64,000 bases of DNA from a virus, in IMG/VR virus record IMGVR_UViG_3300027708_000022, positions 62,001 through 126,000 of that record, one strand, 5' to 3'. The first letter of the stretch is position 1. Every line of letters begins with the position of its first letter. Of the stretch, positions 4 through 25,564 are shown piece after piece. The notes under the pieces are model-generated. The model was not told where the DNA came from and ran no database searches. It was given only the letters and a program-made list of their open reading frames with translations. The translations under genes were made by a program, and so were the position numbers.

Positions 4-1686
4 TTGTTAATGAAAAGAGAAGTTAATAAACTTGCTAAATTGGAAAAAGTATCTCCTGCGACTAATGTGGACAGATCATTGGATGCGGAAACAGGAACAA
101 CAGATACTACACAACCATCTAAAATTGAAACTGAAAAAGGTGGATTTAATATTTTATTGTTAATTGCTGCTGTTGCCGCTGTTGCAACAGCTGTAACGGT
201 GGGATATGAAAATTTAAAAGAGTCATTTGATTCCACTATATCAGAATCTTTGAAACCACTTTTACATTTTGGTTCAGATTTATTTGAAGAATTTGAAAAT
301 ATATTTGATTGGACAGAATTAAGAATGTCTGATTTATCCGACCTTGCAGAAGATACAATGGATTTTTTCAAAGAAAATCTTTCTAAATTATTTAATATGG
401 ATGTTTTAGGTAAAATTAAAGATATTGCCAACAATGTTATCTCTAAATTTTTAGGAACGGATAGTGGTGGTGATAATGTAAAAACTCAAATTTATGATCC
501 TGAAGCTGAGAGAAATGCTGGAGAAGCAGAAGCTCAACATTATATGCGTGATAGGGAGTCAGCATTAGTAGCTGCTCAAAATGATCCAAATACCAAAACA
601 CGAAAGAAAAGATCAAGTAAAATTTTGGATATGGAGGGATTATTATCTGGTGAAAATGCTCTAGGTAATGTTATAGCTTCAGGTGAAAGTCGTGGAGCTG
701 GATACAATGCGTACAATAAAGGAACTATAGGAAATAAAATAATTGGTTCGGATAAAAAAATAGATTTTTCTAGTATGACACTTGATGAATATTTTAGAAG
801 ATCCGAATTGCCATCTAATGATCCTGATAAGTTATTTGCTGTTGGAAAATATCAAATAATTCCAGATACGATGAAAGGTATTGTTAAAGCTTTAGGGGTT
901 GATACAAAAACAACACAGTTAACACCTGATGTACAAGAATCTTTTTTTAAATATCTTGTTAGTAATAGAAGAAATTTGAACGCATATCTCAAAGGTAAAT
1001 CTGATGACTTAAATGGAGCTATTCTTGACCTTGCTAAAGAATGGGCAGCTGTCGGTGTTCCATATGATAATCCAGACGGGAAACAATTAAAAAGGGGACA
1101 ATCATATTATTCCGGAACAGGTGGTAATGCGGCTAGTCTTTCACCTGAAATCATTGGTCAAGCTTTAGTTAAACAGAGAAGTGATAATTTAACTTCACCG
1201 ACAACAGCATCAGCAAAAACACCATTACCAACTGCATCAGTAACACCAACAACAGTACCAACAACAACATTATCAAAAACACCATTACCAACTGCATCAG
1301 TAACACCAACAACAGTACCAACAACAACATCATCGAACATCACCAACAATACCAATACCAACAACATTACAGCACCAACAACAACGAACATCACCAACAA
1401 TACCAATACCAACAACATTACAGCACCAACAACAACGAACATCACCAACAATACCAATACCAACAACATTACAGCACAAGATATAACTTCGATAAAAACA
1501 GCATCTATATCTCCGAATGTTATTGGTAGTAAACCTAATAACCAAAAAACGGTGTATATTCCTGTTCCTATTTCCTCCGGATCTGGTGGAAACAATCAAG
1601 ATAATGTAACAAATTCAAGAAACAAATTAAAAGAGGATTATGTTGCACGATTAATGTGGAACAATCTTGTTAATAATCTCGGATAA
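4..1686 (+). CDS. Lysozyme/transglycosylase-like structural protein, possibly 5'-partial
   Basis: One of only two rightward genes. The frame is open to the left edge, so the start may lie outside the window; an in-frame ATG is at base 10. About residues 48-66 form a hydrophobic segment, followed by a helical region. Residues about 205-350 look like a lysozyme or soluble transglycosylase fold: a GES motif carrying a likely catalytic Glu, then AVGKYQIIPDTM and a helical tail. The C-terminal third is a Thr/Asn/Pro-rich repeat linker followed by a short basic end. Such proteins in T4-like phages are usually virion or tail components that open peptidoglycan. That role is inferred. It converges on gp32. 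Confidence 0.7.
   Translation: MLMKREVNKLAKLEKVSPATNVDRSLDAETGTTDTTQPSKIETEKGGFNILLLIAAVAAVATAVTVGYENLKESFDSTISESLKPLLHFGSDLFEEFENIFDWTELRMSDLSDLAEDTMDFFKENLSKLFNMDVLGKIKDIANNVISKFLGTDSGGDNVKTQIYDPEAERNAGEAEAQHYMRDRESALVAAQNDPNTKTRKKRSSKILDMEGLLSGENALGNVIASGESRGAGYNAYNKGTIGNKIIGSDKKIDFSSMTLDEYFRRSELPSNDPDKLFAVGKYQIIPDTMKGIVKALGVDTKTTQLTPDVQESFFKYLVSNRRNLNAYLKGKSDDLNGAILDLAKEWAAVGVPYDNPDGKQLKRGQSYYSGTGGNAASLSPEIIGQALVKQRSDNLTSPTTASAKTPLPTASVTPTTVPTTTLSKTPLPTASVTPTTVPTTTSSNITNNTNTNNITAPTTTNITNNTNTNNITAPTTTNITNNTNTNNITAQDITSIKTASISPNVIGSKPNNQKTVYIPVPISSGSGGNNQDNVTNSRNKLKEDYVARLMWNNLVNNLG
1215..1487 (+). repeat. In-frame tandem repeats (2 x 60 bp, then 3 x 51 bp)
   Basis: Two 60-bp units (20 residues, TPLPTASVTPTTVPTTT core) run from 1215 to 1334. 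Three 51-bp units (17 residues, NITNNTNTNNITAPTTT) run from 1335 to 1487. Copies are nearly identical, so the array is recent or prone to slippage. Both periods are multiples of three and keep the frame. Confidence 0.95.
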
Positions 1687-1691
1687 CAAAA

Positions 1692-1709
1692 AACCCGCCG
1701 AAGCGGGTT
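1692..1709 (-). terminator. Intrinsic terminator with UUCG tetraloop downstream of gp32
   Basis: Read leftward this is AACCCGC-TTCG-GCGGGTT followed directly by a T run, so a 7-bp stem with a UUCG loop and U tract. It lies 23 bp past the gp32 stop. The plus-strand direction has no T run, so it mainly ends the leftward transcript. C(UUCG)G loops are typical of T4-type terminators. Confidence 0.9.
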
Positions 1710-1731
1710 AAACTCTATTGTGGAGATAAGT

Positions 1732-2631
1732 TTATTTTGTGTCTGCTAGTGAATTAAAGTAATCCATTTCTTCATCGGCTTCAGCAACAACTTTCTTATC
1801 AAGTGCAGCTAAGTCCTCTTCTTTAAATGAATCTAACACAGCAGTTTCCGCCTTAGTTCTAGGATTTTCAACACCTGCGAAACCAAGAACCTTATCGAGG
1901 CGAGCTTTGAGTACATCATAAGATTTAAACTGTCCCTTCTCTGTGAATTCTTTTAGTGAGAATTCTTTCTTCCAGAGAGCTTCAAGTTTTTCATCGTCAC
2001 CATCAAACAATGCAGACATACCAGCAAATTCTGACTTGTCATAGTTGCGATAACCTTCAACATTACGAATCTTCAATTTGAAGTTAGCACCTTCCCACAT
2101 ATCAAATGGGTTAACTGGTGATTCATCAGCAAATTCTGGATTCATTGCTTCGGAAATCTTATCGAAAATCTTTTTACCAAACTTATAGAGTTTGATTTGA
2201 CCTTCGTTTTCTGGATTGCTTGGGTCAGAAAGAACCAAGATATTAGCCATGTAAGTCAACTTACGTTTCTGTTTACGGACAATCTCTTTGTTGGCTTCGA
2301 TGCCTGAATTCCAAAGAGTGCTGTTGTGTTCACAGACAGGACATTTATCGTTTAATGTTGTCAAGCAGTTGTCAATAAACCAACCGCCAGGTCCCTGAAA
2401 ACCATGACTGAAAGTACGAACCCAAGGAAGAGCATCATCACCGTCTACAGCAGGTGCAGGCAAGAAACGAATCTGTGCCATACCGTTACCTGATTTATCT
2501 ACTGATGGTTGCCAAAGGCGGGTGTCATCTTTTGAACCGGCTTCTGAAGAACCGGATTGAGTATCGTTGATTGCTTTGGTGAGTTTGTCCAAAGAACTAC
2601 GATCACGTTTTAAATTTGCGAAATTCGACAT
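1732..2631 (-). CDS. 32: Single-stranded DNA-binding protein, T4 gp32 family
   Basis: 299 residues, close to T4 gp32 (301). The OB-fold core contains SGNGMAQIRFLPAP, matching the T4 NAGNGQAVIRFLP region. A zinc site is visible as a His in RTFSHGF plus three Cys in DNC...CPVC. The C-terminus is acidic (EADEEMDYF), as needed in this family for recruiting replication partners. The N-terminus is basic. It coats ssDNA during replication, recombination and repair. The start has GAGGTAA as ribosome site. It is next to gp59, gp33 and dsbA as in T4. Confidence 0.97.
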   Translation of the reverse strand: MSNFANLKRDRSSLDKLTKAINDTQSGSSEAGSKDDTRLWQPSVDKSGNGMAQIRFLPAPAVDGDDALPWVRTFSHGFQGPGGWFIDNCLTTLNDKCPVCEHNSTLWNSGIEANKEIVRKQKRKLTYMANILVLSDPSNPENEGQIKLYKFGKKIFDKISEAMNPEFADESPVNPFDMWEGANFKLKIRNVEGYRNYDKSEFAGMSALFDGDDEKLEALWKKEFSLKEFTEKGQFKSYDVLKARLDKVLGFAGVENPRTKAETAVLDSFKEEDLAALDKKVVAEADEEMDYFNSLADTK

Positions 2632-2690
2632 TTTTTATTACCTCGTATTTAATGTATGTTAATGTATATTTTTTATCCACATGATGCATG

Positions 2691-2704
2691 ATATACTAGT
2701 ATAT
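2691..2704. promoter_or_regulatory. Palindromic -10-like element in the gp32 leader
   Basis: A perfect 14-bp palindrome ATATACTAGTATAT lies 60 bp upstream of gp32. On the minus strand it contains TATACT in the context GCATATATACTAG, which is shared word for word with the leader promoter near 23420. No good -35 is present, so this may be an activator-dependent middle promoter or a gp32 operator. Confidence 0.35.
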
Positions 2705-2733
2705 ATGCTTCTTCCAAGTGGGTGGATCACAAC

Positions 2734-3327
2734 TCATAATATAACCTTCTTCAAAATCAACTTGTATTTTACATCATCTAGCATAAGAAATGCGGCATAC
2801 TTGGTCAATTTCATTTCATATTCTGGCCATCGGATAGTATCCGTAATTCTTTTGTTCCACATGGGCAAGAAATTAAGGATTCTGTTTAGGATGATTAGTG
2901 TCTCTGGAGATATCTCTTTACGCAAAGCTTTAGTTAAGAGTACTGGATAGTCTCCATTCGTCACCAAAACATCGTTTGGATTCTTACAGACTGAGAACAA
3001 GTTTCTACATTCATTTTCAAAGGTATAAGACATTGATTGTATAACCTTCTGTCTTTGCCTATAGATAATTTCACACTCTTCACCTAGTAGAGTGCCAACC
3101 CAAACTTTGCTATCTTCCAAAAGATTAGCCACAAGAAAATTGATGTAATCATCTTTAATTGGATGTTTACGGGATAACTTGTAGAAGTGGAATTTATCCT
3201 TACGATTTTCAAACGTAATAACGCTGACGTTACTTTTCCCATTATATTTTAGATAGTCATAAGATTTTTGGGTAAAATGTAACTTGAGTCCGTTGTATAT
3301 AGAGAAGGCTTCATAACCTGTCATCAT
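2734..3327 (-). CDS. 59: Loader of DNA helicase, T4 gp59 family
   Basis: 197 residues (T4 gp59 is 217). DKFHFYKLSRKH followed by INFLVANLLEDSKVWVGTL aligns well with T4 gp59 DKYFFQKLSEKY and FISNLVANQDAWIGDI. A later region with FENECRNLF matches the T4 FEEDIRNIY segment. The family loads the gp41 replicative helicase onto gp32-coated forks. The position between gp33 and gp32 is the T4 order. It overlaps the gp33 end by four bases. Confidence 0.9.
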   Translation of the reverse strand: MMTGYEAFSIYNGLKLHFTQKSYDYLKYNGKSNVSVITFENRKDKFHFYKLSRKHPIKDDYINFLVANLLEDSKVWVGTLLGEECEIIYRQRQKVIQSMSYTFENECRNLFSVCKNPNDVLVTNGDYPVLLTKALRKEISPETLIILNRILNFLPMWNKRITDTIRWPEYEMKLTKYAAFLMLDDVKYKLILKKVIL

Positions 3328-3861: not shown

Positions 3862-4512
3862 TTAGTCCCAAAGACCTTCGTAATACTTACCAAACAGGCG
3901 AAATCCGTTTTCTTTGCGCTTTTGCCAAGCCTTTAAACCAACCCAATCTACCTTGAGTTTACTTTGATAGTTACTATCATTATCCCAAGGAAATTTATCA
4001 TCACATTCAGAGTGGTCAAAAAATCTACCTTCGGCATCATCATCAACTTTCTGTTCAAATGCCCAAATCATTTCATCAAGAACCCATTCCCATCGAGCAT
4101 GAATATTTGGATAATCATCGTCATATGATTTATCTTCTTTATAAAAATCAAAGACGGATTGTTCTTCATACTCTTGTGTACCTGTTGTACGCAGGTGCTC
4201 AGGAACATCCTCAAGGTCAACAAAAGGTGAACCGTGTTTGGTTGCTTTAAGCTGCTTAAGCATTGGTAAAATGATTGGTGCTAGAGTGCTATCCATACTC
4301 CAAGTATCCCAATAATCAATCTTCGCATAGTCGATCTTTGGATGTACTACATCAAGGACTTTTCGGAGAGCTTCACAGATTGGATTTAGGCGGTCAGACC
4401 ACTTATCAATAAGCGGTTCTTTATAGTCAATCTCACGCCAGAAGAATACTTTCTCCAGTATGGTGTAAGGACTTAACCAATGGTTTCGGTATTTGTTGCT
4501 ATACACACGCAT
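3862..4512 (-). CDS. Conserved phage protein of unknown function
   Basis: 216 residues, rich in Trp, Asp and Tyr, with DTWSMDSTLAPIILPML and a C-terminal LKAWQKRKENGFRLFGKYY segment. It looks like a family widespread in large phages, but no catalytic motif is evident and I cannot give a function. The ribosome site AAGGAT precedes the ATG. Confidence 0.75.
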   Translation of the reverse strand: MRVYSNKYRNHWLSPYTILEKVFFWREIDYKEPLIDKWSDRLNPICEALRKVLDVVHPKIDYAKIDYWDTWSMDSTLAPIILPMLKQLKATKHGSPFVDLEDVPEHLRTTGTQEYEEQSVFDFYKEDKSYDDDYPNIHARWEWVLDEMIWAFEQKVDDDAEGRFFDHSECDDKFPWDNDSNYQSKLKVDWVGLKAWQKRKENGFRLFGKYYEGLWD

Positions 4513-4576
4513 TATTTTTTATCCTTACAAAAATTGAAATGACAGTTTTTCAACAGAACTGCCAAACTGAATTAAA

Positions 4577-5023
4577 TTAGAACTTGTACTTGATACCCGC
4601 AGTGATGACACTACCATTAAATCGAGTAACGCCAGATTCAGCATATTGATATGCATAGTCAAGTGTTCCTGCAACCGACTTTGTAAATGGTACAGTCAAA
4701 CCGAGACCAACAGTCCCTGCTGAACCACTTGTAGCGCTTTGATTGTTGAGGTATACATAACCAACTTTACCAGCAACTACCAAACTGTTCGTAGTATATA
4801 AATCATATGAGCCAGTAAGAGACCAACGATTCTGAGTAGAACCATTTAACCATGCTTGACCATATCCAGCTTCTAAACCTAGTTTGTCAAATTTCTGACC
4901 AGCGGTAACACCAGCTAAACCACCTGATGCACTACCAGTAACAGCACCACCATTAACACCAACTTCAAAAGCAGCTACGTTAAATGCTGCCAAAAGTGTT
5001 GCAATCAAAAGTACTTTTTTCAT
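4577..5023 (-). CDS. Exported outer-membrane beta-barrel protein
   Basis: 148 residues. A clear signal peptide (MKKVLLIATLLAAFNVAA) is followed by alternating amphipathic strands rich in Gly, Tyr, Ser and Thr, ending in KYKF with the C-terminal Phe that Gram-negative barrels use for BAM-dependent insertion. The size suits an 8-strand barrel such as OmpX or OmpW type. A phage-encoded outer-membrane barrel could block or alter receptor use (superinfection exclusion) or change permeability. That role is inferred from location only. It is monocistronic, with a hairpin (GTTAGGTT/AACCTAAC) in its leader around 5050-5081. Confidence 0.8.
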   Translation of the reverse strand: MKKVLLIATLLAAFNVAAFEVGVNGGAVTGSASGGLAGVTAGQKFDKLGLEAGYGQAWLNGSTQNRWSLTGSYDLYTTNSLVVAGKVGYVYLNNQSATSGSAGTVGLGLTVPFTKSVAGTLDYAYQYAESGVTRFNGSVITAGIKYKF

Positions 5024-5332: not shown

Positions 5333-5374
5333 TTTACTTCTCCTTAGTGTGTGTAACTACTGTGTGTGTAAAGC

Positions 5375-5672
5375 GATAGTTGATTCTGTTTCCAAGTTCA
5401 ACTATCAAAACTCAGATGGTTATGCTTACGCAGCCATCAAAAAGCGATTATCGTTTGCTTTTATAGTTTTTTACTTTTAGCGACTATCTGTGTCGAGTTG
5501 TCCATTCCGTTACTTGTTGCCCAATCGAAACCTGGTCAGCCCATCAAAAGCATACTCGATCGTTTCCTGTCTTATCAATCTTATGACACCAAGTATGCTT
5601 TTGGTGGAGCTGGAGGGAATCGAACCCTCGTCTTGAACACTTTTCTCTTTACTTCATACAACTATACAACCA
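5375..5672 (-). ncRNA. ssrA: Permuted two-piece tmRNA (ssrA), tag ANDNRFLMAA
   Basis: Read leftward, the acceptor piece comes first. It has a T arm GAGGG-TTCGATT-CCCTC (5629-5613) and CCAGCTCCACCA ending at 5602. An intervening segment follows whose ends form a perfect 10-bp stem (5592-5601 with 5547-5556). Then comes the coding piece, starting GGGCTGACCAGGTTTCGATT (from 5542), which matches the canonical tmRNA 5' end and pairs with CAGCTCC. The tag frame GCA...TAA at 5458-5426 encodes ANDNRFLMAA. A 9-bp hairpin (5375-5383 with 5398-5406) closes the 3' side. The order acceptor-spacer-coding is the circular permutation of two-piece tmRNAs. With SmpB it would rescue stalled ribosomes. The ends are approximate. 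Confidence 0.93.
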
Positions 5673-5679
5673 TTATATA

Positions 5680-6360
5680 TCACTTCACGATTTTAGTCAA
5701 TGGTGAATTCGCTAAAAACGACAATAATTGGGTACGGTACATATACTTTTGCCTAACAAAGATTTGTGGTTGCCCGCCTTCTACTGCAATGGCAACAACT
5801 ATAGTATCAATTGTTTTGTTAGTTAATTCCTCAAACATTTCAGCATAAGCCGTACATTGTAGGAAATAATTTAGAATGTTTTCTTCCAACTTTTCTTTTG
5901 ATGAGGACTTATAATCTATGATTGATAACCTTTTATTCCATTCTGCAATAGTATCAACACGACCAGCAATTCTCAGCTTGTCAGAATAAAGTGGTTGTTC
6001 AATTGCATATATCTTACCGATATTTTTATCCAATTCAGGACGCAATTGAAAAAACAACTCTTTAATATTTGGCATCATATTGCGAATTTTTAAATCACTC
6101 ATTTCATTGAGCAAATATTTTTCACAAGCCAAATGCAATGCTTCACCTCGGCGTGAGGCACGACCTGATACTTTATTGGCTTCTTCTTCACCAACTCGGT
6201 TACGCCATGCATCAATAGCACCTTTGTTCATAGACCCAAGTACTGTTGTTACTGACGGGTATGCTTTGCCTGAAGGTGTATAATATAACCGACCAGATTC
6301 TGTTGTCTTTGCTTCCATCTCAAAATCTAATTCAGGTAACTTCTCATGTGTGAAAATCAT
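5680..6360 (-). CDS. PD-(D/E)XK exonuclease, RecB/MGME1-like
   Basis: 226 residues. Motifs in order: an RGEALHLACE helix, IAGRVDTIAEW (Asp), LSIIDYKSS (D-x-K catalytic pair) and a QCTAYAEMFEEL helix (Q-xxx-Y motif). This is the RecB/Cas4/MGME1-type nuclease core, used by T4-like phages in DNA processing or recombination. The N-terminal SGKAYPSVTTVLG is also typical. It lies just upstream of the tmRNA acceptor piece and its stop is eight bases before the proposed RNA. Confidence 0.88.
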   Translation of the reverse strand: MIFTHEKLPELDFEMEAKTTESGRLYYTPSGKAYPSVTTVLGSMNKGAIDAWRNRVGEEEANKVSGRASRRGEALHLACEKYLLNEMSDLKIRNMMPNIKELFFQLRPELDKNIGKIYAIEQPLYSDKLRIAGRVDTIAEWNKRLSIIDYKSSSKEKLEENILNYFLQCTAYAEMFEELTNKTIDTIVVAIAVEGGQPQIFVRQKYMYRTQLLSFLANSPLTKIVK

Positions 6361-16838: not shown

Positions 16839-16915
16839 TGGTACGGATGACGGGACTCGAACCCGTAGAACCTTAATTTTAAGTCAAGTATGTAAACCAA
16901 TTCCATCACATCCGC
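16839..16915 (-). tRNA. tRNA-Leu (TAA)
   Basis: 77 nt including encoded CCA; anticodon loop CTTAAAA; T loop TTCGAGT. Six bases downstream of nothing but the next tRNA, so cotranscribed. Confidence 0.93.
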
Positions 16916-16920
16916 ATTAC

Positions 16921-16995
16921 TGGCACCCCCAGCAGGAATCGAACCTACGTTTACCCTTTAGAAGAGGGATGTATTTTCCACTATACTATGGGGGC
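16921..16995 (-). tRNA. tRNA-Arg (TCT)
   Basis: 75 nt with CCA; anticodon loop CTTCTAA in stem CCCT/AGGG. Reads AGA, a codon often rare in GC-rich hosts. Confidence 0.94.
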
Positions 16996-17000
16996 ATTAC

Positions 17001-17077
17001 TGGTGCCTCAGGCGGGACTCGAACCCGCAGAATTTCGCTTCTAAGGCGAACACGGCTACCAATTACGTCACCGAGGC
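17001..17077 (-). tRNA. tRNA-Leu (TAG)
   Basis: 77 nt with CCA; anticodon loop CTTAGAA in a perfect TTCGC/GCGAA stem. Confidence 0.94.
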
Positions 17078-17078
17078 A

Positions 17079-17306
17079 TTACCTACGCATCTTCCAAGTG
17101 TATTCTTCACCACTTGGGAGTTTTCCATCTTCTACTGAATCAACACCCATCTTACCAACTTGGTTTGGATTCTCACCAACCATAGTGACATAAGAAGCAC
17201 GACCAACATTACGCAAATGGTTAGTTAATGTTAACGCTTCAACCATATCAATGTAATCTTGACTACACGCTTGTCCATTAGGATTTGTCCAATACACTTT
17301 GTACAT
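17079..17306 (-). CDS. Small protein within the tRNA island
   Basis: 75 residues from the ATG at 17306 (AAGGTG upstream). MYKVYWTNPNGQACSQDYID then a conserved-looking ALTLTNHLRN and GENPNQVGKMG. Its stop is one base from the Leu tRNA 5' end. No function recognised. Confidence 0.65.
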   Translation of the reverse strand: MYKVYWTNPNGQACSQDYIDMVEALTLTNHLRNVGRASYVTMVGENPNQVGKMGVDSVEDGKLPSGEEYTWKMRR

Positions 17307-17325
17307 AATCACCTTATATAATACT

Positions 17326-17401
17326 TGGTGCTGCCCACAGGAATCGAACCTGTTTCAACGGTTCTTCAAACCGCCGCTATGACCACATCAGCTAGAGCAG
17401 C
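17326..17401 (-). tRNA. tRNA-Phe (GAA)
   Basis: 76 nt with CCA; anticodon loop TTGAAGA. Confidence 0.93.
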
Positions 17402-17407
17402 ATAACT

Positions 17408-17482
17408 TGGTACATCGTGACGGGATCGAACCGCCGACAATCTCGGTGTAAGCGAGGAGCTCTACCGCTGAGCTAACGATGC
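17408..17482 (-). tRNA. tRNA-Val (TAC)
   Basis: 75 nt with CCA; anticodon loop CTTACAC in CTCG/CGAG stem. Confidence 0.93.
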
Positions 17483-17494
17483 ATTAATTCACTT

Positions 17495-17568
17495 TGGGGT
17501 GACTACTGGGAGTTGAACCCAGACTAGCAGAATCACAAACTGCGTTGCTACCGTTACAACATAGTCAC
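17495..17568 (-). tRNA. tRNA-His (GTG)
   Basis: Anticodon loop TTGTGAT; discriminator C, as His tRNAs need, followed by CCA. Flanked by a long imperfect inverted repeat (TTAATTCATTTTGG outside), which extends the acceptor stem. The -1 base is T, not the usual G. Confidence 0.9.
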
Positions 17569-17593
17569 ACCAAAATGAATTAACATTTTGGAC

Positions 17594-17616
17594 TTGGTGT
17601 TGCGTACACCAAGTAA
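17594..17616. other. Hairpin between His tRNA and Ro-like gene
   Basis: ACTTGGTGT-TGCGT-ACACCAAGT, a 9-bp stem eight bases past the stop of the Ro-like gene. No U tract, so a processing or stability element rather than a clear terminator. Confidence 0.5.
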
Positions 17617-17623
17617 AACGATA

Positions 17624-19030
17624 TTAGACCTTGTATCGGTCAGACATAATGGCTTTCAACATGATAGCTTCTGGAGTAAACTCTGAAGTATCTGCTGCAA
17701 GAATTGCTTTAACGATTGAAGGACTGAACCCTGAAACCAAAGCAACACCTGATTCATCATGCTTAACAGGTACGTTATCTGATGAATTGATATTCCAAAA
17801 AACAACTTTAGGAACTTCATAGCCATTTGAGGCGAATTGACGAGCAATCATCTCCATGGCCGAATCATCATGTTCTACGCAAGCATTGAATTGCATATCA
17901 GACAGAATCAACAGCATTGATGGCATATCTTCCTGTGGTACTTTGCCTTTTACAGCAACATTTAAAATCTTCATCATGGCTTTCACCAAGTCAGTAGACA
18001 TACCCCATTCGGATCTAACCATTTGATCCATCTTCTGAATGACATTACCTTTTAGGTTAAGCAATTGCGGATCACTTGAGAATGTTAAAAAGGTGTCTTT
18101 GAAAACTCCTTTGTTCTTATCTGCAAGGTATAGACCAAGAGATACAGAAACATCCATACATGATACTGAACTGTTACGACCAGCAGGGCATGACATAGAA
18201 CCAGAAACGTCAACTAAAGGTAATACATTCGCATCACCAACAAAATTCTCTAAAGCATCCCATTGGGCTACAATGTGGTCTTTTTCGGTTTTGTTGTATG
18301 AACCGTATGCTACGCCTTTCAATACATCATAAGGGAATACTGCACCAGCATTCACCTTAACTTTTGGATCGGTACCTTTAACCAATTCAGCCACATACTC
18401 CGCAAACTTTTCAGTATTACGGTAGAATGCTTTCTTGTAACGGCTAGCCGCCAAAGAAGGCACATGACTGAAATTGATGTTATCCCAATCCTTAGCACAC
18501 ATTTGAGATTCTACCACTTTAGTCATTTCAACCAAAGACTTACGATAGAACTTAGGTGTCATGCCGAAGAACTCACGCAATTCACGAGCAACTTCACCTT
18601 TGCGGGGTGTCCATTTTGCCGCCAATCCGTTTTTAGCTCTCAGAGCATCACCAAGCAAAGTGTATGCTTGTGACTTCAATTCAGAAGTCTGGAAAACAAA
18701 TAGGTCATCCCAACGACCAACTTCAGGTACTTTCCCAAGTAGCTTCATTGCCAAATCAGGACGATTGGTTTCCAAATACTTCAGAATCTGGCGAAACAAC
18801 TCACGCTCGCCAGCGCCACCACGAACATCACGAGACCATAAGGCAACTCGCAATGCTAATTCTTCATCCTGCACCAAAGCAGAAACGAAGTCAGCTGTGA
18901 TATCTTTACCGCGGCTGGCACCGATTTTATAGAACAAATCAACTACAGCATTAGCAGTAGATTTGCGAGCTTTCATACCATTGTCGGTACGAGCTTCTTG
19001 ATTTTGAACTGCGTTTACAAATGAATTCAT
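17624..19030 (-). CDS. Ro60-like RNA-binding protein (TROVE/DUF2828-type repeats plus vWA)
   Basis: 468 residues. The N-terminal half has helical-repeat sequence with the conserved ALWSRDVRGGAGERELFRQI block of the TROVE/DUF2828 superfamily. The C-terminal half is a von Willebrand A domain: LPLVDVSGSMSC gives the MIDAS DxSxS, and SMLLILSDMQFN the later Asp. Bacterial Ro binds Y RNAs and misfolded RNAs and works with exonucleases. It lies inside the tRNA island, and two repeated hairpin elements (19053-19206) lie between the Gly tRNA and its start. Ribosome site GAGGAAG. DUF2828 and Ro proper cannot be separated without a profile search. Confidence 0.82.
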   Translation of the reverse strand: MNSFVNAVQNQEARTDNGMKARKSTANAVVDLFYKIGASRGKDITADFVSALVQDEELALRVALWSRDVRGGAGERELFRQILKYLETNRPDLAMKLLGKVPEVGRWDDLFVFQTSELKSQAYTLLGDALRAKNGLAAKWTPRKGEVARELREFFGMTPKFYRKSLVEMTKVVESQMCAKDWDNINFSHVPSLAASRYKKAFYRNTEKFAEYVAELVKGTDPKVKVNAGAVFPYDVLKGVAYGSYNKTEKDHIVAQWDALENFVGDANVLPLVDVSGSMSCPAGRNSSVSCMDVSVSLGLYLADKNKGVFKDTFLTFSSDPQLLNLKGNVIQKMDQMVRSEWGMSTDLVKAMMKILNVAVKGKVPQEDMPSMLLILSDMQFNACVEHDDSAMEMIARQFASNGYEVPKVVFWNINSSDNVPVKHDESGVALVSGFSPSIVKAILAADTSEFTPEAIMLKAIMSDRYKV

Positions 19031-19052
19031 AATATTACTTCCTCAATTTAAC

Positions 19053-19101
19053 AGGTTAACTTTTTCAAGTTGGCTTTGAATTTTATTGCTGAACTTAACC
19101 T
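19053..19101 (-). repeat. Family B inverted-repeat element B0
   Basis: Minus strand TTTAGGTTAA...TTAACCTGTTA with CAGCAA ten bases in. It shares the TTTAGG, CAGCAA and CCTGTTR landmarks with B1-B3 but has a different stem sequence (AGGTTAA/TTAACCT), i.e. compensatory change. It forms the leader of the Ro-like gene. Confidence 0.65.
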
Positions 19102-19110
19102 AAAAACAAC

Positions 19111-19206
19111 AGGATGGTTTCTACTTTTTGTTTTTCAAGTGAGAAAATCGAAACTCACTATCCGATGGCGATTTTACCCGCCGAGTATTTTTGCTGCACC
19201 CATCCT
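19111..19206 (-). repeat. Family B inverted-repeat element B1
   Basis: 96 nt bounded by AGGATGG/CCATCCT. Inside are CAGCAA, hairpin GGCG/CGCC and hairpin AGTGAG/CTCACT. Longest member, immediately downstream (transcriptionally) of tRNA-Gly(TCC). Confidence 0.75.
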
Positions 19207-19212
19207 AAACCT

Positions 19213-19286
19213 TGGAGCGAGATATCAGAATCGAACTGATAACAACAGATTGGAAATCTATAGTTTTACCATTAAACTAATCTCGC
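19213..19286 (-). tRNA. tRNA-Gly (TCC)
   Basis: 74 nt with CCA; anticodon loop TTTCCAA. Confidence 0.93.
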
Positions 19287-19295
19287 CTACTTAAA

Positions 19296-19772
19296 CTATG
19301 CTGCTTTATCTAATACGAATTTTAAACGATCCGCAGCGAAAGATGCGGCAAACGCTTGAGGTTTTACCAGAGGGATAACATTACACATACCTCTAATATA
19401 CCCAACTGCCTCATTGATAACGCATGAACTACCGTGCATTTCATCAGGATTAATATCCAAATGTACCTCAACATCACGGTCTTCCAAAACGTCTTTTAAC
19501 TTCAAATATAATTCGGCAATTTTATATACTTCCGTCATTAATCTCATTCTTGGTTTATCTTTTCTTTGATCCCAATCTCTTTCAGTTTGGACTTCACCAA
19601 AGATTTTACAACCATTCTTACCATTAATATGTACTACAATAGCTAAAGTGTAATCAGCATACCAATCTTTACCAATGAGGAAACGAGCCGAGTCCGCACC
19701 GATATAAATCTTAGTCTCAGGACTTTGTGCTTCAATAAACTCTTTCACTTCATTAACATCAATCTTACGCAT
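19296..19772 (-). CDS. RNase H-like protein, DUF458/YkuK family
   Basis: 158 residues. IYIGADSARFL (first Asp), RLMTEVYKIAELYL, VEVHLDINPDEMHGSS (second acidic site) and the KPQAFAASFAADR C-terminal signature define the DUF458 ribonuclease H-like family. It is placed between Gly tRNA genes, so tRNA or other RNA may be the substrate, but the family's activity is not established. Ribosome site AAGGAG. Confidence 0.85.
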   Translation of the reverse strand: MRKIDVNEVKEFIEAQSPETKIYIGADSARFLIGKDWYADYTLAIVVHINGKNGCKIFGEVQTERDWDQRKDKPRMRLMTEVYKIAELYLKLKDVLEDRDVEVHLDINPDEMHGSSCVINEAVGYIRGMCNVIPLVKPQAFAASFAADRLKFVLDKAA

Positions 19773-19795
19773 GATTACTACTCCTTTTAAAAACT

Positions 19796-19869
19796 TGGAG
19801 CGGGTAGAGAGAATCGAACTCTCAAATATTCCTTGGCAAGGAATTAGGTTACCTTTACATCATACCCGC
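19796..19869 (-). tRNA. tRNA-Gly (GCC)
   Basis: 74 nt with CCA; loop TTGCCAA in a perfect ATTCC/GGAAT stem. Confidence 0.94.
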
Positions 19870-19875
19870 ATAACT

Positions 19876-19950
19876 TGGCACCGCCCGAAGGATTCGAACC
19901 CTCACCAGCTGATTTGGAGTCAGTTGTGCTGCCGTTGACACTAGAGCGAT
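19876..19950 (-). tRNA. tRNA-Trp (CCA)
   Basis: 75 nt with CCA; loop CTCCAAA in CTGA/TCAG stem; discriminator G. Confidence 0.93.
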
Positions 19951-19960
19951 ATAATACAAC

Positions 19961-20020
19961 AGGATAGATTTTAACGGTTTTGATTAGAAGTCAAATGTTT
20001 TAATTTGCTGTTACTATCCT
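19961..20020 (-). repeat. Family B element B2, tRNA-like
   Basis: 60 nt bounded by AGGATAG/CTATCCT. Carries TAACAGCAAA and a perfect 5-bp stem with a 7-nt loop CTTCTAA, identical to the Arg(TCT) anticodon loop, but lacks normal D and T arms. Lies between Trp and Ile tRNAs. Confidence 0.75.
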
Positions 20021-20025
20021 AAAAC

Positions 20026-20102
20026 TGGTACAGAGTATTGGGCTTGAACCAATGACCTACGCCTTATCAAGACGTTGCTACTACCAACTGAGCTAACTCT
20101 GC
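20026..20102 (-). tRNA. tRNA-Ile (GAT)
   Basis: 77 nt with CCA; loop TTGATAA. Confidence 0.93.
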
Positions 20103-20111
20103 ATTAATACT

Positions 20112-20186
20112 TGGAAGGTCCTGAAGGAATCAAACCTTCACTTTTTCGTTCGTAGCGAAATGTAATATTCATTTTACTAAGGACCT
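20112..20186 (-). tRNA. tRNA-Arg (ACG)
   Basis: 75 nt with CCA; loop CTACGAA in TTTCG/CGAAA stem. Needs host TadA for inosine. Confidence 0.93.
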
Positions 20187-20192
20187 AAAACT

Positions 20193-20269
20193 TGGTGGTG
20201 AAAGTAGGATTCGAACCTACGACCGTTACCGTATGAAGGTACTGCTCTACCAAACTAAGCTACATCACC
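20193..20269 (-). tRNA. tRNA with CAT anticodon (probably elongator Met)
   Basis: 77 nt with CCA; loop TTCATAC; G1-C72 pair and GTAGCTTAG D arm fit elongator Met, but Ile2 is not excluded. Confidence 0.9.
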
Positions 20270-20282
20270 ATAATGTTCTTTG

Positions 20283-20357
20283 TCTGGATAGTAGGATTTG
20301 AACCTACAGCCTCCTCGTTCCAAACAAGGCCGTCTACCAGATTGACAATATACCCAG
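20283..20357 (-). tRNA. tRNA-Pro (TGG)
   Basis: 75 nt, loop TTTGGAA. No CCA encoded; the acceptor stem is extended by a perfect 10-bp flanking inverted repeat (20274-20283 with 20358-20367). Confidence 0.93.
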
Positions 20358-20379
20358 ACAAAGAACACTACCTAAAAAA

Positions 20380-20454
20380 TGGTGGACCGTGAGAGAATCG
20401 AACTCTCAATTTCTGGTTGCAAACCAGATGTGTTCCCATTAGCACTAACAGCCC
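20380..20454 (-). tRNA. tRNA-Ala (TGC)
   Basis: 75 nt with CCA; loop TTTGCAA in TCTGG/CCAGA stem. Confidence 0.93.
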
Positions 20455-20464
20455 TCTAAACAAC

Positions 20465-20518
20465 AGGATGGAATTTTCTTTTTATCAATAAAAGTTTTTT
20501 TGTTGCTGTTACCATCCT
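20465..20518 (-). repeat. Family B element B3
   Basis: 54 nt bounded by AGGATGG/CCATCCT with TAACAGCAA and an inner CTTTT/AAAAG hairpin. Lies between Ala and Tyr tRNAs; flanks GTTTT and GTTGT match B2. Confidence 0.75.
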
Positions 20519-20527
20519 AAAACTTGA

Positions 20528-20608
20528 TGCGTCAGGTAGGGATCGAACCTACTTGTCCTAAAACCACGGGGTTACAGCCCGCTGCCCTGCCATTAGAGCA
20601 TCCAACGC
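20528..20608 (-). tRNA. tRNA-Tyr (GTA)
   Basis: Class II tRNA with extended variable arm; loop CTGTAAC. The 3' end is followed by TCA instead of CCA. Confidence 0.9.
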
Positions 20609-20616
20609 ATTAAAAC

Positions 20617-20691
20617 TGGCTCCGTGATTAGGAATCGAACCTAACTATGACAAATTAACAGTTTGCTCCCACACCTTGCGGGTCTCACGGA
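20617..20691 (-). tRNA. tRNA-Asn (GTT)
   Basis: 75 nt with CCA; loop CTGTTAA. The 5' end overlaps the last codons of the HNH gene by about seven bases. Confidence 0.92.
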
Positions 20692-21230
20692 ATTATTTTT
20701 TTCAATCTCTTTCTTATCGCTGTATCCGAAATATTTAACTTTTCAGCCACATTAATTATAGTATCATTCTTTAATAATTCTGTTAAATCTATATTATCCC
20801 AATCTACTTTAAATTTTGATTTAGAAGAACAAGATAAAGAACAATATTTATTGAACAATGGTTTATCTTTTTCACAAACAGGACATGAATCCATTTCAGT
20901 TAGTTTTTCTTGTTTATAACTTGTAAAATTTTCATCAAATTTTGTATAATCTTCAGGCATTTTTACAATATCACTATGAACCTCACTATGACAATTATGA
21001 CATAATAAAATGCATTTTCTCAATTCTTCAACAATAGATAACCAATTTTTAGGATTTGCTCGTATTGCTCCAAAAGATAATTCTTTCATGTTTGGGTCTA
21101 TATGGTGTAGGGCTAAAGCACTATCACATTTATTATATCCACATATTTGACAACAATTTCCCATAGACTCTATTATTCGTTTTTTGGTATTTTGTCGCCA
21201 TCTTTTTACTGCTTCTGAATTTTTACTCAT
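20685..21230 (-). CDS. HNH homing endonuclease in the tRNA array
   Basis: 181 residues. CCQICGYNK, ALALHHIDPNMKELSF and CILLCHNCHSEVH form an HNH/treble-clef nuclease. A second Cys pair (CPVC...CSLSC) adds a zinc module, and the C-terminal NVAEKLNISDTAIRKRL is a helix-turn-helix for site recognition. It has its own TATAAATA promoter and a good ribosome site, and sits between tRNAs, so it is a mobile free-standing gene. Its A/T-rich codon use differs from neighbours. Confidence 0.9.
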   Translation of the reverse strand: MSKNSEAVKRWRQNTKKRIIESMGNCCQICGYNKCDSALALHHIDPNMKELSFGAIRANPKNWLSIVEELRKCILLCHNCHSEVHSDIVKMPEDYTKFDENFTSYKQEKLTEMDSCPVCEKDKPLFNKYCSLSCSSKSKFKVDWDNIDLTELLKNDTIINVAEKLNISDTAIRKRLKKIIP

Positions 21231-21263
21231 AAAACCTCTGTTTTAAAAATTAACTTAATTTGT

Positions 21264-21271
21264 TATTTATA
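21264..21271 (-). promoter_or_regulatory. Late promoter TATAAATA of the HNH gene
   Basis: Minus strand TATAAATA 34 bases before the HNH start, inside an otherwise early/stable-RNA cluster. The gene appears to have arrived with its own late promoter. Confidence 0.8.
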
Positions 21272-21293
21272 ATTTTAAGGTTTTATAAAAACT

Positions 21294-21370
21294 TGGTTGC
21301 GGAGTCCTGGATTCGAACCAGGGGTCTACAGCTTATGAGGCTGCCGGGATGACCTCTTCCCTAACCCGCA
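21294..21370 (-). tRNA. tRNA with CAT anticodon (possible initiator Met)
   Basis: 77 nt with CCA; loop CTCATAA in CAGC/GCTG stem; 3' end CCGCAACCA as in initiator tRNAs, but the first pair is U-A, not C-A. Identity is uncertain. Confidence 0.88.
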
Positions 21371-21379
21371 ATTAAAACT

Positions 21380-21497
21380 TGGTGTCGCACTCAGGATTCG
21401 AACCTGAACCACTTCCTTTTCGATGGAATTTTGGTATGCTGTTTATATTCTTGTCAGAATACGTTAATAAGTGTGCTACCGTTTACACCAATGCGAC
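21380..21497 (-). tRNA. Interrupted tRNA with 42-nt insertion
   Basis: 118 nt from GTCGCAT to GTGCGAC-ACCA with intact acceptor, D (GTGT/GCAC) and T arms. Removing 21429-21470 leaves 76 nt with a perfect CTTCC/GGAAG anticodon stem and an 8-nt loop ATCGAAAA. The insert contains hairpin GTATTC/GAATAT. The anticodon cannot be assigned. Either a disrupted tRNA or an unusual intron-like insertion. Confidence 0.7.
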
Positions 21498-21506
21498 ATT
21501 AAAACT

Positions 21507-21580
21507 TGGTGCCCTATGACAGAATCGAACTGCCGTGACCTGATTACAAAACAGGTGTAATACCATTATACTAATAGGGC
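21507..21580 (-). tRNA. tRNA-Thr (TGT)
   Basis: 74 nt with CCA; loop TTTGTAA. Confidence 0.92.
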
Positions 21581-21586
21581 GAAACT

Positions 21587-21661
21587 TGGCGACTCATGGG
21601 AGAATCGAACTCCCGTAACAGGATAGACAATCCCGTGTAATAACCATTATACTAATGAGCC
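21587..21661 (-). tRNA. tRNA-Asp (GTC)
   Basis: 75 nt with CCA; loop TTGTCTA. Its 5' end is the exact edge of family A element A1. Confidence 0.93.
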
Positions 21662-21737
21662 ATATTGAAATACACTATACGGGTCTACGTCCCGTGGCAC
21701 TTTAGACTTTCATTGCCTATAAATGTACTTCAATATG
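21661..21737 (-). repeat. Family A inverted-repeat element A1
   Basis: 77 nt bounded by CATATTGAARTAC/GTAYTTCAATATG (12 of 13 paired). Inside are hairpins GGCA/TGCC and ACGGG/CCCGT, giving a three-way junction. Spacer between Lys and Asp tRNAs. Confidence 0.85.
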
Positions 21738-21742
21738 ACAAC

Positions 21743-21816
21743 TGGTGGGGGCACAGAGAATCGAACTCTGATAGACCGGTTAAAAGCCGGATATTCTACC
21801 TTTGAATTATACCCCC
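21743..21816 (-). tRNA. tRNA-Lys (TTT)
   Basis: 74 nt with CCA; loop CTTTTAA in CCGG/CCGG stem. Confidence 0.93.
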
Positions 21817-21873
21817 AAAAGTTTGTCACTCTTGTCACTATCCATGACAATACTCCTATAAAAACAAACAATA

Positions 21874-21948
21874 TGGTACACCGTATGGGTTACGATCCCA
21901 TCTAGCCACCTTGAAAGGGTGGTGACCTCACCAGAAGTCTAACGGTGC
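21874..21948 (-). tRNA. tRNA-Glu (TTC)
   Basis: 75 nt with CCA; loop CTTTCAA. The T loop is ATCGTAA instead of TTCRANY, so T54 is missing, which is unusual. Confidence 0.9.
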
Positions 21949-21966
21949 ATTAAAATTTACTACTCT

Positions 21967-21981
21967 AATTTTTAAAGAACA
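21967..21981 (-). promoter_or_regulatory. boxA antitermination element 1
   Basis: Minus strand TGTTCTTTAAAAATT, matching the bacterial rRNA boxA (TGYTCTTTAAMAATT), about 20 nt after the predicted start of the tRNA transcript. Confidence 0.85.
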
Positions 21982-22006
21982 TCACTGCATTTCTTACTAT
22001 GTGTCC

Positions 22007-22034
22007 ATTATACATGAACCACTTGGTAAGTCAA
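22007..22034 (-). promoter_or_regulatory. Stable-RNA sigma70 promoter 1
   Basis: TTGACT-16 bp-TATAAT (minus), then boxA. Drives Glu tRNA and downstream tRNAs. The stretch of about 80 bp is nearly repeated at 23103-23185. Confidence 0.9.
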
Positions 22035-22047
22035 CAACTAATTTTAT

Positions 22048-22063
22048 TGTTGCCTAAACAACA
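22048..22063. repeat. TGTTG-N-CAACA dyad upstream of stable-RNA promoter
   Basis: TGTTGCCTAAACAACA, 14 bp upstream of the -35. A short copy of the dyad motif found at the early promoters. Confidence 0.7.
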
Positions 22064-22078
22064 CTAAAGCTACCTTAC

Positions 22079-22156
22079 TGGAAGTGCGAGTCAGATTTGA
22101 ACTGACGATTTTACGGGTTTGCAATCCGTTGCTTTTGACCACTCAGCCATCGCACT
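22079..22156 (-). tRNA. tRNA-Cys (GCA)
   Basis: 78 nt with CCA; loop TTGCAAA. Confidence 0.9.
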
Positions 22157-22164
22157 ATTAAAAA

Positions 22165-22251
22165 TGGCGGGTAGTATAGGATTCGAACCTATGCACCTTT
22201 ACGGTGGACGGCTTAGCAAGCCGCTGCCTTCGACCACTCAGCCAACTACCC
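22165..22251 (-). tRNA. tRNA-Ser (GCT)
   Basis: 87 nt class II tRNA with long variable arm and CCA; loop TTGCTAA. Its first six bases contain the stop codon of the phosphoesterase gene. Confidence 0.94.
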
Positions 22252-22842
22252 ATTTCCGTTACTAAAACCTACCTTACCGCCTTGTGCTTCAATTCTCTTA
22301 ATTACATCTTCAAAAAGAATCGGTGCAAAATCTGTTTGTTCAACGCATACACAATGATAACGAGGATCAATTTCCGTTTCGCTGTAGATAATTTCTCCAG
22401 TCGGATAATTAATACCTTTCGCCTTCATAACACGATTCGTATGGAGGTGTCCATGAATGTTTACACCAAATCTTCCAAGATTTTCTGGATGAAGTGGAAT
22501 ATGGCTAAGAATCATTCCGTTCATTACATGATAAGCACGAAGCTCTCTGAAATGTTCACGATATTCATCATCTTTAAAAATATCATGGTTACCACGAATA
22601 AGAACTTTGTCACCATTAAGTCTACGCATAATACCAAGGCTTTTGCGTTTCATCACTACGTCACCAAGGTGATATACTTTATCGTTCTTTCCTACTCTTT
22701 CGTTCCAGAGTTTGACCATCGCTTCATCCATTTCATCAGGATCAGTCCATGGTCTAATCTTAACTCCGGTATCTTGGTGTGTAAAACGACATACACCAGC
22801 GTGTCCAAAATGTGTGTCGCTAACAAGAAATACTGCTGGCAT
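22246..22842 (-). CDS. Calcineurin-like metallophosphoesterase
   Basis: 198 residues. All metal motifs are present: SDTHFGH, HLGDVVM, IRGNHD, LSHIPLH and HGHLHTN. Such phage enzymes may act on RNA ends, cyclic phosphates or nucleotides; its position inside the tRNA island hints at an RNA substrate, which is inference. The stop codon lies inside the Ser(GCT) tRNA. Ribosome site AGGAG. Confidence 0.92.
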   Translation of the reverse strand: MPAVFLVSDTHFGHAGVCRFTHQDTGVKIRPWTDPDEMDEAMVKLWNERVGKNDKVYHLGDVVMKRKSLGIMRRLNGDKVLIRGNHDIFKDDEYREHFRELRAYHVMNGMILSHIPLHPENLGRFGVNIHGHLHTNRVMKAKGINYPTGEIIYSETEIDPRYHCVCVEQTDFAPILFEDVIKRIEAQGGKVGFSNGNG

Positions 22843-22861
22843 ATTAGTCTCCTATAAAATA

Positions 22862-22954
22862 TGGCGGGCGGCAGAGGAGTCGAACCCCATCCCCATTACA
22901 GAGAACCTGGTTTTCAAGGCCAGTCGCAGGACCATCCCCGCTGCATTACCACCC
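22862..22954 (-). tRNA. tRNA-Ser (TGA)
   Basis: 93 nt class II tRNA with CCA; loop CTTGAAA. Its 5' end coincides with the edge of element A2. Confidence 0.94.
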
Positions 22955-23029
22955 ATATTGAAGTACACTCCTGATTCTGTTCGATAAAACAGAATGTTGG
23001 CTAGCCTACCTGAAATGTACTTCAATATG
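22954..23029 (-). repeat. Family A inverted-repeat element A2
   Basis: 76 nt bounded by a perfect CATATTGAAGTACA-type inverted repeat. Starts within the CCA of tRNA-Gln and ends at the first G of tRNA-Ser, so it is the whole spacer. Inner hairpin ATTCTGTT/AACAGAAT. Confidence 0.88.
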
Positions 23030-23101
23030 GCAGCGGTACTTGGGATCGAACCAAGGATAACGGATTCAAAATCCATCGTGATACCATTTCACTATACCGC
23101 A
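23028..23101 (-). tRNA. tRNA-Gln (TTG)
   Basis: 74 nt with CCA; loop TTTTGAA. First tRNA of the upstream transcript. Confidence 0.92.
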
Positions 23102-25099: not shown

Positions 25100-25366
25100 T
25101 TAAATCCTTGACAAATTAATAACACGACCTGGATAATCATTGTGAAATACCGCAACAGGGCAATACACGATTTTACCAACTCGACCCTTATCTTCAGCAT
25201 CCGACCATGAGTCCTTGGTCACAATGATTTTATAGGCATTGTAGCCTTGCTCATTGGTGATTTCTAAAATTTCACCTTCAACGAAACAATCTTCACGACC
25301 AACCATTGGTTTAAAATCGTAAGAGCGAATAACATCACGGACTTCAAATTTTTCGGCTTTCAACAT
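25100..25366 (-). CDS. Conserved small phage protein
   Basis: 88 residues from the ATG at 25366 (AAGGAAAT upstream). FEVRDVIRSYDFKPMVGRED and VEGEILEI suggest a small beta-barrel seen in several phages. First gene after promoter 25396-25423. Confidence 0.7.
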   Translation of the reverse strand: MLKAEKFEVRDVIRSYDFKPMVGREDCFVEGEILEITNEQGYNAYKIIVTKDSWSDAEDKGRVGKIVYCPVAVFHNDYPGRVINLSRI

Positions 25367-25395
25367 TTTATTTCCTTTCTCATTCAACAGGAACC

Positions 25396-25423
25396 ATTAT
25401 ACACTAACCGGCAAGGGAGTCAA
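25396..25423 (-). promoter_or_regulatory. Early sigma70-type promoter
   Basis: TTGACT-16 bp-TATAAT, then GGTTCCTGTTGAATG. Family member. Confidence 0.9.
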
Positions 25424-25438
25424 GGACTTTTTGGATAA

Positions 25439-25456
25439 TGTTGTAAAAAAACAACA
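25439..25456. repeat. TGTTGT-N-ACAACA dyad
   Basis: TGTTGTAAAAAAACAACA, directly after the stop of the 35-residue membrane gene and 15 bp before the promoter. Confidence 0.85.
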
Positions 25457-25564
25457 CTAGAAATTTAAATATTTACTTGCAATAAGAGCAAATACCAAAG
25501 CAATTCCTGCCAATATAATCGGCGCAATAATAATACAACCTATTGCAAGTAAAATACTAATCAT
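25457..25564 (-). CDS. Small membrane peptide, 35 residues
   Basis: ATGA overlap with the preceding peptide. Almost wholly hydrophobic (LLAIGCIIIAPIILAGIALV). Possibly envelope-acting, function unknown. Confidence 0.55.
   Translation of the reverse strand: MISILLAIGCIIIAPIILAGIALVFALIASKYLNF

Follow-up and report, generated by a model that had tools for sequence, protein, structure and literature searches.

A phage RNA family with covarying stems and tRNA-like payloads linked to a DUF2828/DUF7788 gene

The Y RNAs of bacteria are built from modules, with a stem that binds Rsr and, in YrlA, a tRNA-like part that binds polynucleotide phosphorylase (PNPase); YrlA is known to tether this enzyme in RYPER (PMC8394870). 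The tRNA-like part of YrlA has further been suggested to be a competitive inhibitor of an anticodon nuclease (PMC7790460). For phages, PMC12282133 cites Y RNAs in mycobacteriophages from Chen 2014 and Sim and Wolin 2018, and part of the findings on phage Y RNAs below may have been anticipated in that earlier work. A further class of relevance is the Class I RNAs of social amoebae, which combine a variable compensating stem, a 3' CUGU and, beside the 5' strand of the stem, an 11-nucleotide motif that reads CCUUACAGCAA in the Rfam consensus. PMC7919456 describes them as reported in no organism other than dictyostelids. Here, four elements (B0 to B3) were analyzed that lie in a tRNA gene array, next to a gene for a DUF2828/DUF7788 protein, in a 64,000-nucleotide stretch of viral DNA (the window; positions 62,001 to 126,000 of IMG/VR record IMGVR_UViG_3300027708_000022). 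An RNA family with covarying helices, tRNA-like payloads and a link to this gene was established. The four elements are members of a large, very widespread and apparently undescribed family of phage small RNAs. They are probably Y-RNA-type RNAs of a phage Ro60-like particle. Their mimicry of tRNA would either decoy tRNA-cutting defences or tether tRNA enzymes.

Anatomy, covariation and distribution of the elements

The original prediction had placed four elements with terminal stems that vary in a paired way at this site. Their coordinates and pairing were reproduced, and all four were assigned to the minus strand, the direction of the surrounding tRNA genes (24 ARAGORN tRNAs, 16839..23101, minus strand). 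The anatomy from 5' to 3' is AGG-N4-N3-CAGCAA-payload-N4'-CCT-GTT, with 7 of 7 Watson-Crick pairs in each terminal stem. B3 (20465..20518, 54 nucleotides), flanked by tRNA-Tyr and tRNA-Ala, carries the stem AGGATGG/CCATCCT and has its CAGCAA at 20503-20508. B2 (19961..20020, 60 nucleotides; CAGCAA at 20005-20010), flanked by tRNA-Ile and tRNA-Trp, has the stem AGGATAG/CTATCCT and scored 85.7 bits with the covariance model described below. B1 (19111..19206, 96 nucleotides; CAGCAA at 19191-19196) follows tRNA-Gly(UCC) and has the same stem as B3. B0 (19053..19101, 49 nucleotides; CAGCAA at 19086-19091; stem AGGTTAA/TTAACCT) follows B1 and lies 22 nucleotides ahead of the ATG of the 468-amino-acid DUF2828 gene. 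When the covariance model was run against the complete virus record of 162,042 bases, exactly these four copies were returned.

No tRNA was called on B0 to B3 by ARAGORN or Rfam, and at gathering cut-offs Rfam reported tRNAs and a transfer-messenger RNA (tmRNA) in the whole window and no match to a B element. The 3' end of each is GTT rather than CCA, and the four-arm tRNA fold with a free acceptor and CCA was absent from them. The single copies folded barely better than shuffles (z of −0.7 to −2.1). Because these single-copy energies are unremarkable, the window taken alone can only suggest a structured RNA.

The structure was instead deduced from other viral contigs. IMG/VR was scanned with the pattern TTTAGG-N7-CAGCAA-N20-50-CCTGTT, in which the stem bases were left free, and at least 119 stretches matched, many of them with two or three copies. 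The IMG/VR counts are lower bounds, and many loci come from related phages, so that the counts are not independent. A terminal stem of at least 6 bp was paired in 208 of the 221 pattern matches listed, a pairing which the pattern did not demand. In an alignment of 47 short copies, the terminal stem and an inner helix both covaried strongly: 98.6% of cells were paired versus 79.0% in shuffles, double-change cells numbered 123 versus 31, and the covariation score was 0.481 versus 0.112, with no shuffle attaining any of the three measures. Pairing fell to 39-40% when the partner was shifted by one column. A covariance model built from the aligned copies gave 193 matches at E ≤1 across 46 loci; the search of related phages by which the original prediction had proposed to check its claim of compensating stems came out in its favor. 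A pseudoknot between AGCA and the 3' TGTT was also considered, for which covariation is uninformative as both sides are near-invariant. The specific pattern had 0 matches in 84,980 prokaryote genomes, and this form of the family looks, from its sequence distribution, confined to phages. Within 300 nucleotides of a tRNA gene were found 227 of 264 copies, every one on the strand of the tRNA; random positions reached 55%, a value this high because the loci are themselves tRNA arrays.

Most of the 15 named phages that were sampled had the same scaffold, with unrelated stems, near the homologous gene. In loci around this gene, CAGCAA stood 9-10 bases inside a 7-bp stem in 53 hits out of 178 occurrences, whereas control words of the same composition averaged 2.7%; the test pools two offsets, so one element may count twice, and the top control word, ACAGCA, overlaps the motif itself. 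The stems differ by lineage, being AGACC..GGTCT in Felix O1, TGGAC..GTCCA in mycobacteriophage Faith1, AAGACAC..GTGTCTT in Bacillus phage FADO and a Staphylococcus phage, AGGAATC..GATTCCT in Listeria phages, AGAAT..ATTCT in an Aeromonas phage and AAGCG..CGCTT in Sinorhizobium phage phiN3. Elements with still other stems were seen in Enterococcus, Campylobacter, Vibrio, Synechococcus and Acinetobacter phages. Chance or a simple repeat was ruled out as the origin of the elements by the undemanded stem pairing, the covariation and the control-word test.

Two candidate relatives were rejected. The noncoding RNAs of Listeria phage CKA15, which account for the majority of phage transcripts at late times of infection (PMC12282133), lie at positions 4389-4699 of the locus examined (OR088597.1 26388-26698, minus strand), and the three family elements of that phage lie about 1 kb away, at 25289-25553, directly ahead of the gene. 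RNA C and RNA D of T4 have no CAGCAA handle.

Payloads that imitate tRNA

The interiors of the elements imitate tRNA, a feature that had gone unseen in the original prediction, as had the tie to a Ro-like gene and the recurrence of the scaffold with other stems in unrelated phages. The payloads include a bare anticodon stem-loop, a D-anticodon-T body, and a circularly permuted tRNA whose acceptor is closed into a hairpin. None of the RNAs with tRNA-like payloads terminates in CCA, and the handle RNAs should, judging from their termini, not be chargeable by the usual route because the handle ends in CUGU instead.

For the short copies, the strongest hairpin of at least 5 bp with a 7-base loop was compared to those of shuffles. 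U was present at the position of U33 in 96 of 117 short-copy hairpins versus 47 of 165 from shuffles, and A was present at position 37 in 91 of 117. A canonical anticodon stem-loop was found in 88 of 169 distinct short copies, and the commonest anticodons were Lys UUU (20), Thr UGU (20), Ser GGA (8) and Arg UCU (7). The last of these is the anticodon of the B2 payload, a bare stem-loop at 19979..19995 (minus strand) reading UUUGA-CUUCUAA-UCAAA. It was also observed that 81 of the 88 canonical arms combine A37 with U or A at position 36. These are the contexts in which the t6A and i6A37 modifications occur, and AT-richness accounts for part of the pattern.

In the long copies, the D, anticodon and T arms are arranged either as in a normal tRNA or in circular permutation, the acceptor in the latter case being closed as a hairpin loop. 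Among 75 long payloads, ARAGORN called a tRNA in 2 when they were left as written and in 39 after end-to-end doubling; shuffles handled in the same way gave 0 of 150. Permuted payloads were seen in Felix O1, Faith1, FADO, phiN3 and an Enterococcus phage. The payload of B1 belongs to a further class defined by GTGAGTTTCGAT..CTCAC plus AAAAAGTAG, mostly found close to the DUF2828 gene. Payloads of the B1 type (G-GAG-TTTCGAT-CTC and AAAAAGTAG, with a long variable hairpin) also occur in loci L012, L017, L018, L027, L105, L144, L153, L161 and others.

The neighboring gene and the proposed role

The gene immediately downstream of B0 (17624..19030, minus strand) encodes the 468-residue protein proposed as the partner of the RNAs, assigned to phrog_850 ("RNA-binding protein") and consisting of DUF2828 and a DUF7788 von Willebrand factor A (vWA) domain with DVSGSM. 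This metal-ion-dependent adhesion site is conserved among the relatives. When relatives of the gene were fetched by protein alone, ignoring the RNA, an element lay within 220 nucleotides upstream in 61 of 74 loci; for windows drawn at random in these loci the figure was 56 of 740, and some of those windows contain true elements. The gap between element and ATG is frequently 20-23 nucleotides. Conversely, the protein was encoded in 9 of the 10 records of at least 100 kb that were found through the RNA alone. Among 50,697 named phage records, only 675 contain the protein; four plasmid records carry it as well.

The literature and a profile comparison place the DUF2828/DUF7788 protein near Ro60/TROVE. 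In the hhalign comparison, a profile of 24 diverse relatives was set against one built from 18 phage TROVE proteins, which had been reached via mycobacteriophage Alice. The two matched with 88% probability and an E value of 2.9e-6 across the vWA half and the closing VSGF. A PDB sequence search also had TROVE proteins as its best hits, although their E of 0.12 is insignificant. For the Listeria homologue CKA15_055, the top HHpred hit was Rsr of D. radiodurans (PMC12282133), and among named phage records the mycobacteriophage homologue is annotated as a "Ro-like RNA binding protein". Separately, Bixzunavirus Alice was observed to encode a true TROVE (Ro60) protein (1432-3090 of its locus, plus strand) with neither DUF2828 nor an RF01414-like element, so that two kinds of Ro-like protein are distributed over different phages.

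The mechanism we propose begins with the handle, consisting of the terminal helix, the unpaired CAGCAA on the inner 5' side and the 3' CUGU, which is most likely the binding site of the Ro60-like protein. The payload resembles either an anticodon arm or the body of an entire tRNA, lacks a chargeable CCA, and would engage proteins that recognize tRNA. Its most likely use would be as a decoy for the tRNA-cutting enzymes of host defences (anticodon nucleases); almost as likely, it would serve as a tether that fixes enzymes which repair, modify or degrade tRNA to the Ro ring, in the way that YrlA tethers PNPase. The element directly preceding the ATG may allow the protein to bind its own leader. 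From sequence we infer that the elements would be transcribed as separate RNAs, bound by the protein and used in either of these functions. The Y-RNA-type reading with decoys was adopted because the phage RNAs share the division of Y RNAs into stem and tRNA-like part, with an anticodon arm added. Granted that reading, the decoy role against anticodon nucleases is put forward by analogy and tentatively, at somewhat below an even chance.

Several observations weigh against this proposal. Sequence alone does not separate a decoy from a tether. In the window, a canonical anticodon arm is found only in B2, and the inner hairpins of B0 and B3 (each of 5 bp with a 7-base loop) miss the canonical form, that of B0 being without U33 and that of B3 having U33 and no purine at position 37. 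The anticodon arms of the payloads are not copied from the tRNA arms of the phage itself. Among the sampled named phages, phiAS5 and fENko-Kae01 have the gene, and no element was seen in them. Finally, Pfam TROVE (PF05731) does not match the DUF2828 protein, and the match to the TROVE profile is limited to the vWA half, a domain that occurs in many proteins.

The strongest alternative retains the same Ro-like particle and regards the payload as a tether that brings a tRNA-binding enzyme (PNPase, an RNA ligase, RtcB or a modification enzyme), or broken tRNAs to the ring for repair or decay. This reading is rated at appreciably less than even odds, and it draws on the part played by YrlA and Y RNAs in RYPER (PMC8394870) and on a review of jumbo phages that connects TROVE proteins to RNA repair (PMC7824862). 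A gene for an RNA ligase or RtcB also lies near the protein gene in three named phages (Aeromonas 4_4572, fENko-Kae01 and Listeria phages), a proximity that fits decoy and tether alike. A tether, however, would need one payload, and the many different anticodon arms fit a repertoire of decoys better.

It is unlikely that the copies act in cis, regulating the DUF2828 gene or marking processing sites of the tRNA transcript with no free RNAs formed. Such a leader would be consistent with the element about 20 nucleotides ahead of the ATG in many relatives and with the strand shared by every copy within 300 nucleotides of a tRNA gene. Payloads shaped like tRNA, even permuted ones, would however be pointless in a processing signal, and copies are also present downstream of the gene in Felix O1 and Faith1. 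An origin from tRNA genes that have decayed or been rearranged, or from a mobile palindromic repeat that spreads through tRNA arrays, is very improbable. The internal tRNA arms, the array location and the several copies per genome might suggest it, but the covariation has already largely refuted it. The constant CAGCAA handle and compensating stems in unrelated phages show selection on RNA structure, the payloads retain T and D arms in permuted order, and the elements are linked to one protein family.

Under the Y-RNA-type reading, candidate RNA partners and a candidate binding site are now named for DUF2828 proteins, which occur in several hundred named phages, including Felix O1 and Listeria phages, and for which no RNA partner has been identified in the open-access literature. 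Phages carry sets of presumably unchargeable tRNA mimics, and the survival of phages under tRNA-cutting defences, the role of the Ro60/Y RNA particle and a phage counterpart of Y RNA become testable in phages of laboratory strains.

Other features of the window were noted in passing. The tRNA array is interrupted by an open reading frame of 181 amino acids (20685-21230, minus strand) without a Pfam match, in which pairs of Cys and His as in HNH homing endonucleases were seen by eye. At 22867-22953 (minus strand) lies a tRNA missed by ARAGORN, tRNA-Sec-like at 32.6 bits, under the cut-off; it may be a tRNA-Ser whose variable arm is long. A tmRNA-like gene at 5369-5714 (minus strand) matched Rfam tmRNA_permuted at 118.9 bits (5426-5663) and beta_tmRNA at 92.4 bits (5369-5714), corresponding to a permuted tmRNA gene in a phage.

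Comparison with known RNA and protein systems

At its own cut-offs, Rfam named no handle in the window and 12 loci; one normal-order payload, in locus L115, scored as tRNA. The nearest models were YrlA and, more strongly, Dictyostelium Class I RNA. The Faith1 element aligned with the entire YrlA model RF02553 at 21.7 bits, far under the cut-off of 69. As in YrlA and Y RNAs, the 5' and 3' ends of the phage RNA are joined in a terminal helix. The YrlA-like module (T arm, closed acceptor, D arm) is present in long copies of other phages rather than in B0, B2 or B3, and the elements are close to a Ro-like protein gene. They differ from YrlA in the CAGCAA motif of the handle, in their anticodon arms, in their many copies per genome inside tRNA arrays, and in the association with DUF2828 rather than TROVE.

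At E ≤0.1, the Class I model RF01414 gave 31 matches, spread over 13 of 19 records and mostly at independently defined elements; in the Aeromonas phage, 8 of 8 coincided with elements. The best score was 34.5 bits against a gathering cut-off of 41.5 (E of 1.5e-5 for all Rfam families and a 96-base stretch), and B3 was matched over its full length at 20.6 bits, also under the cut-off. Background hits were obtained in T4 (E of 0.0024), in RaK2 (0.027) and, at E 0.1, in 4 of 14 control genomes; weight is therefore placed on clusters of matches, single weak hits meaning little. According to the available text of PMC7919456, Class I RNAs likewise are about 60 nucleotides long, have a short compensating terminal stem, CAGCAA by the 5' strand, a 3' CUGU and a variable interior, and are encoded by many genes. 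They differ, by the same text, in being amoeba nuclear genes with their own promoter, in binding Rnp1A and in having no reported tRNA arms. It is conceivable, although doubtful, that the phage RNAs and the Class I RNAs form one family whose Y-RNA-like handle (stem, CAGCAA and CUGU) is recognized by Ro-like proteins of the DUF2828 type, and through which phages display unchargeable mimics of tRNAs or anticodon arms against tRNA-targeting immunity. Were this so, there would be a protein family to examine for an orphan class. The resemblance may stem from homology, horizontal transfer or convergence.

The likeness of the phage protein to Ro60/TROVE (PF05731) is one of profile, in the vWA half and the closing VSGF, without a Pfam TROVE match. 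Phage-encoded tRNAs that counter tRNA-cutting defences could protect translation from tRNA cleavage, and the elements sit in the same arrays as such tRNAs. Unlike those tRNAs, which are chargeable, the elements are without CCA and would act by occupying the enzyme.
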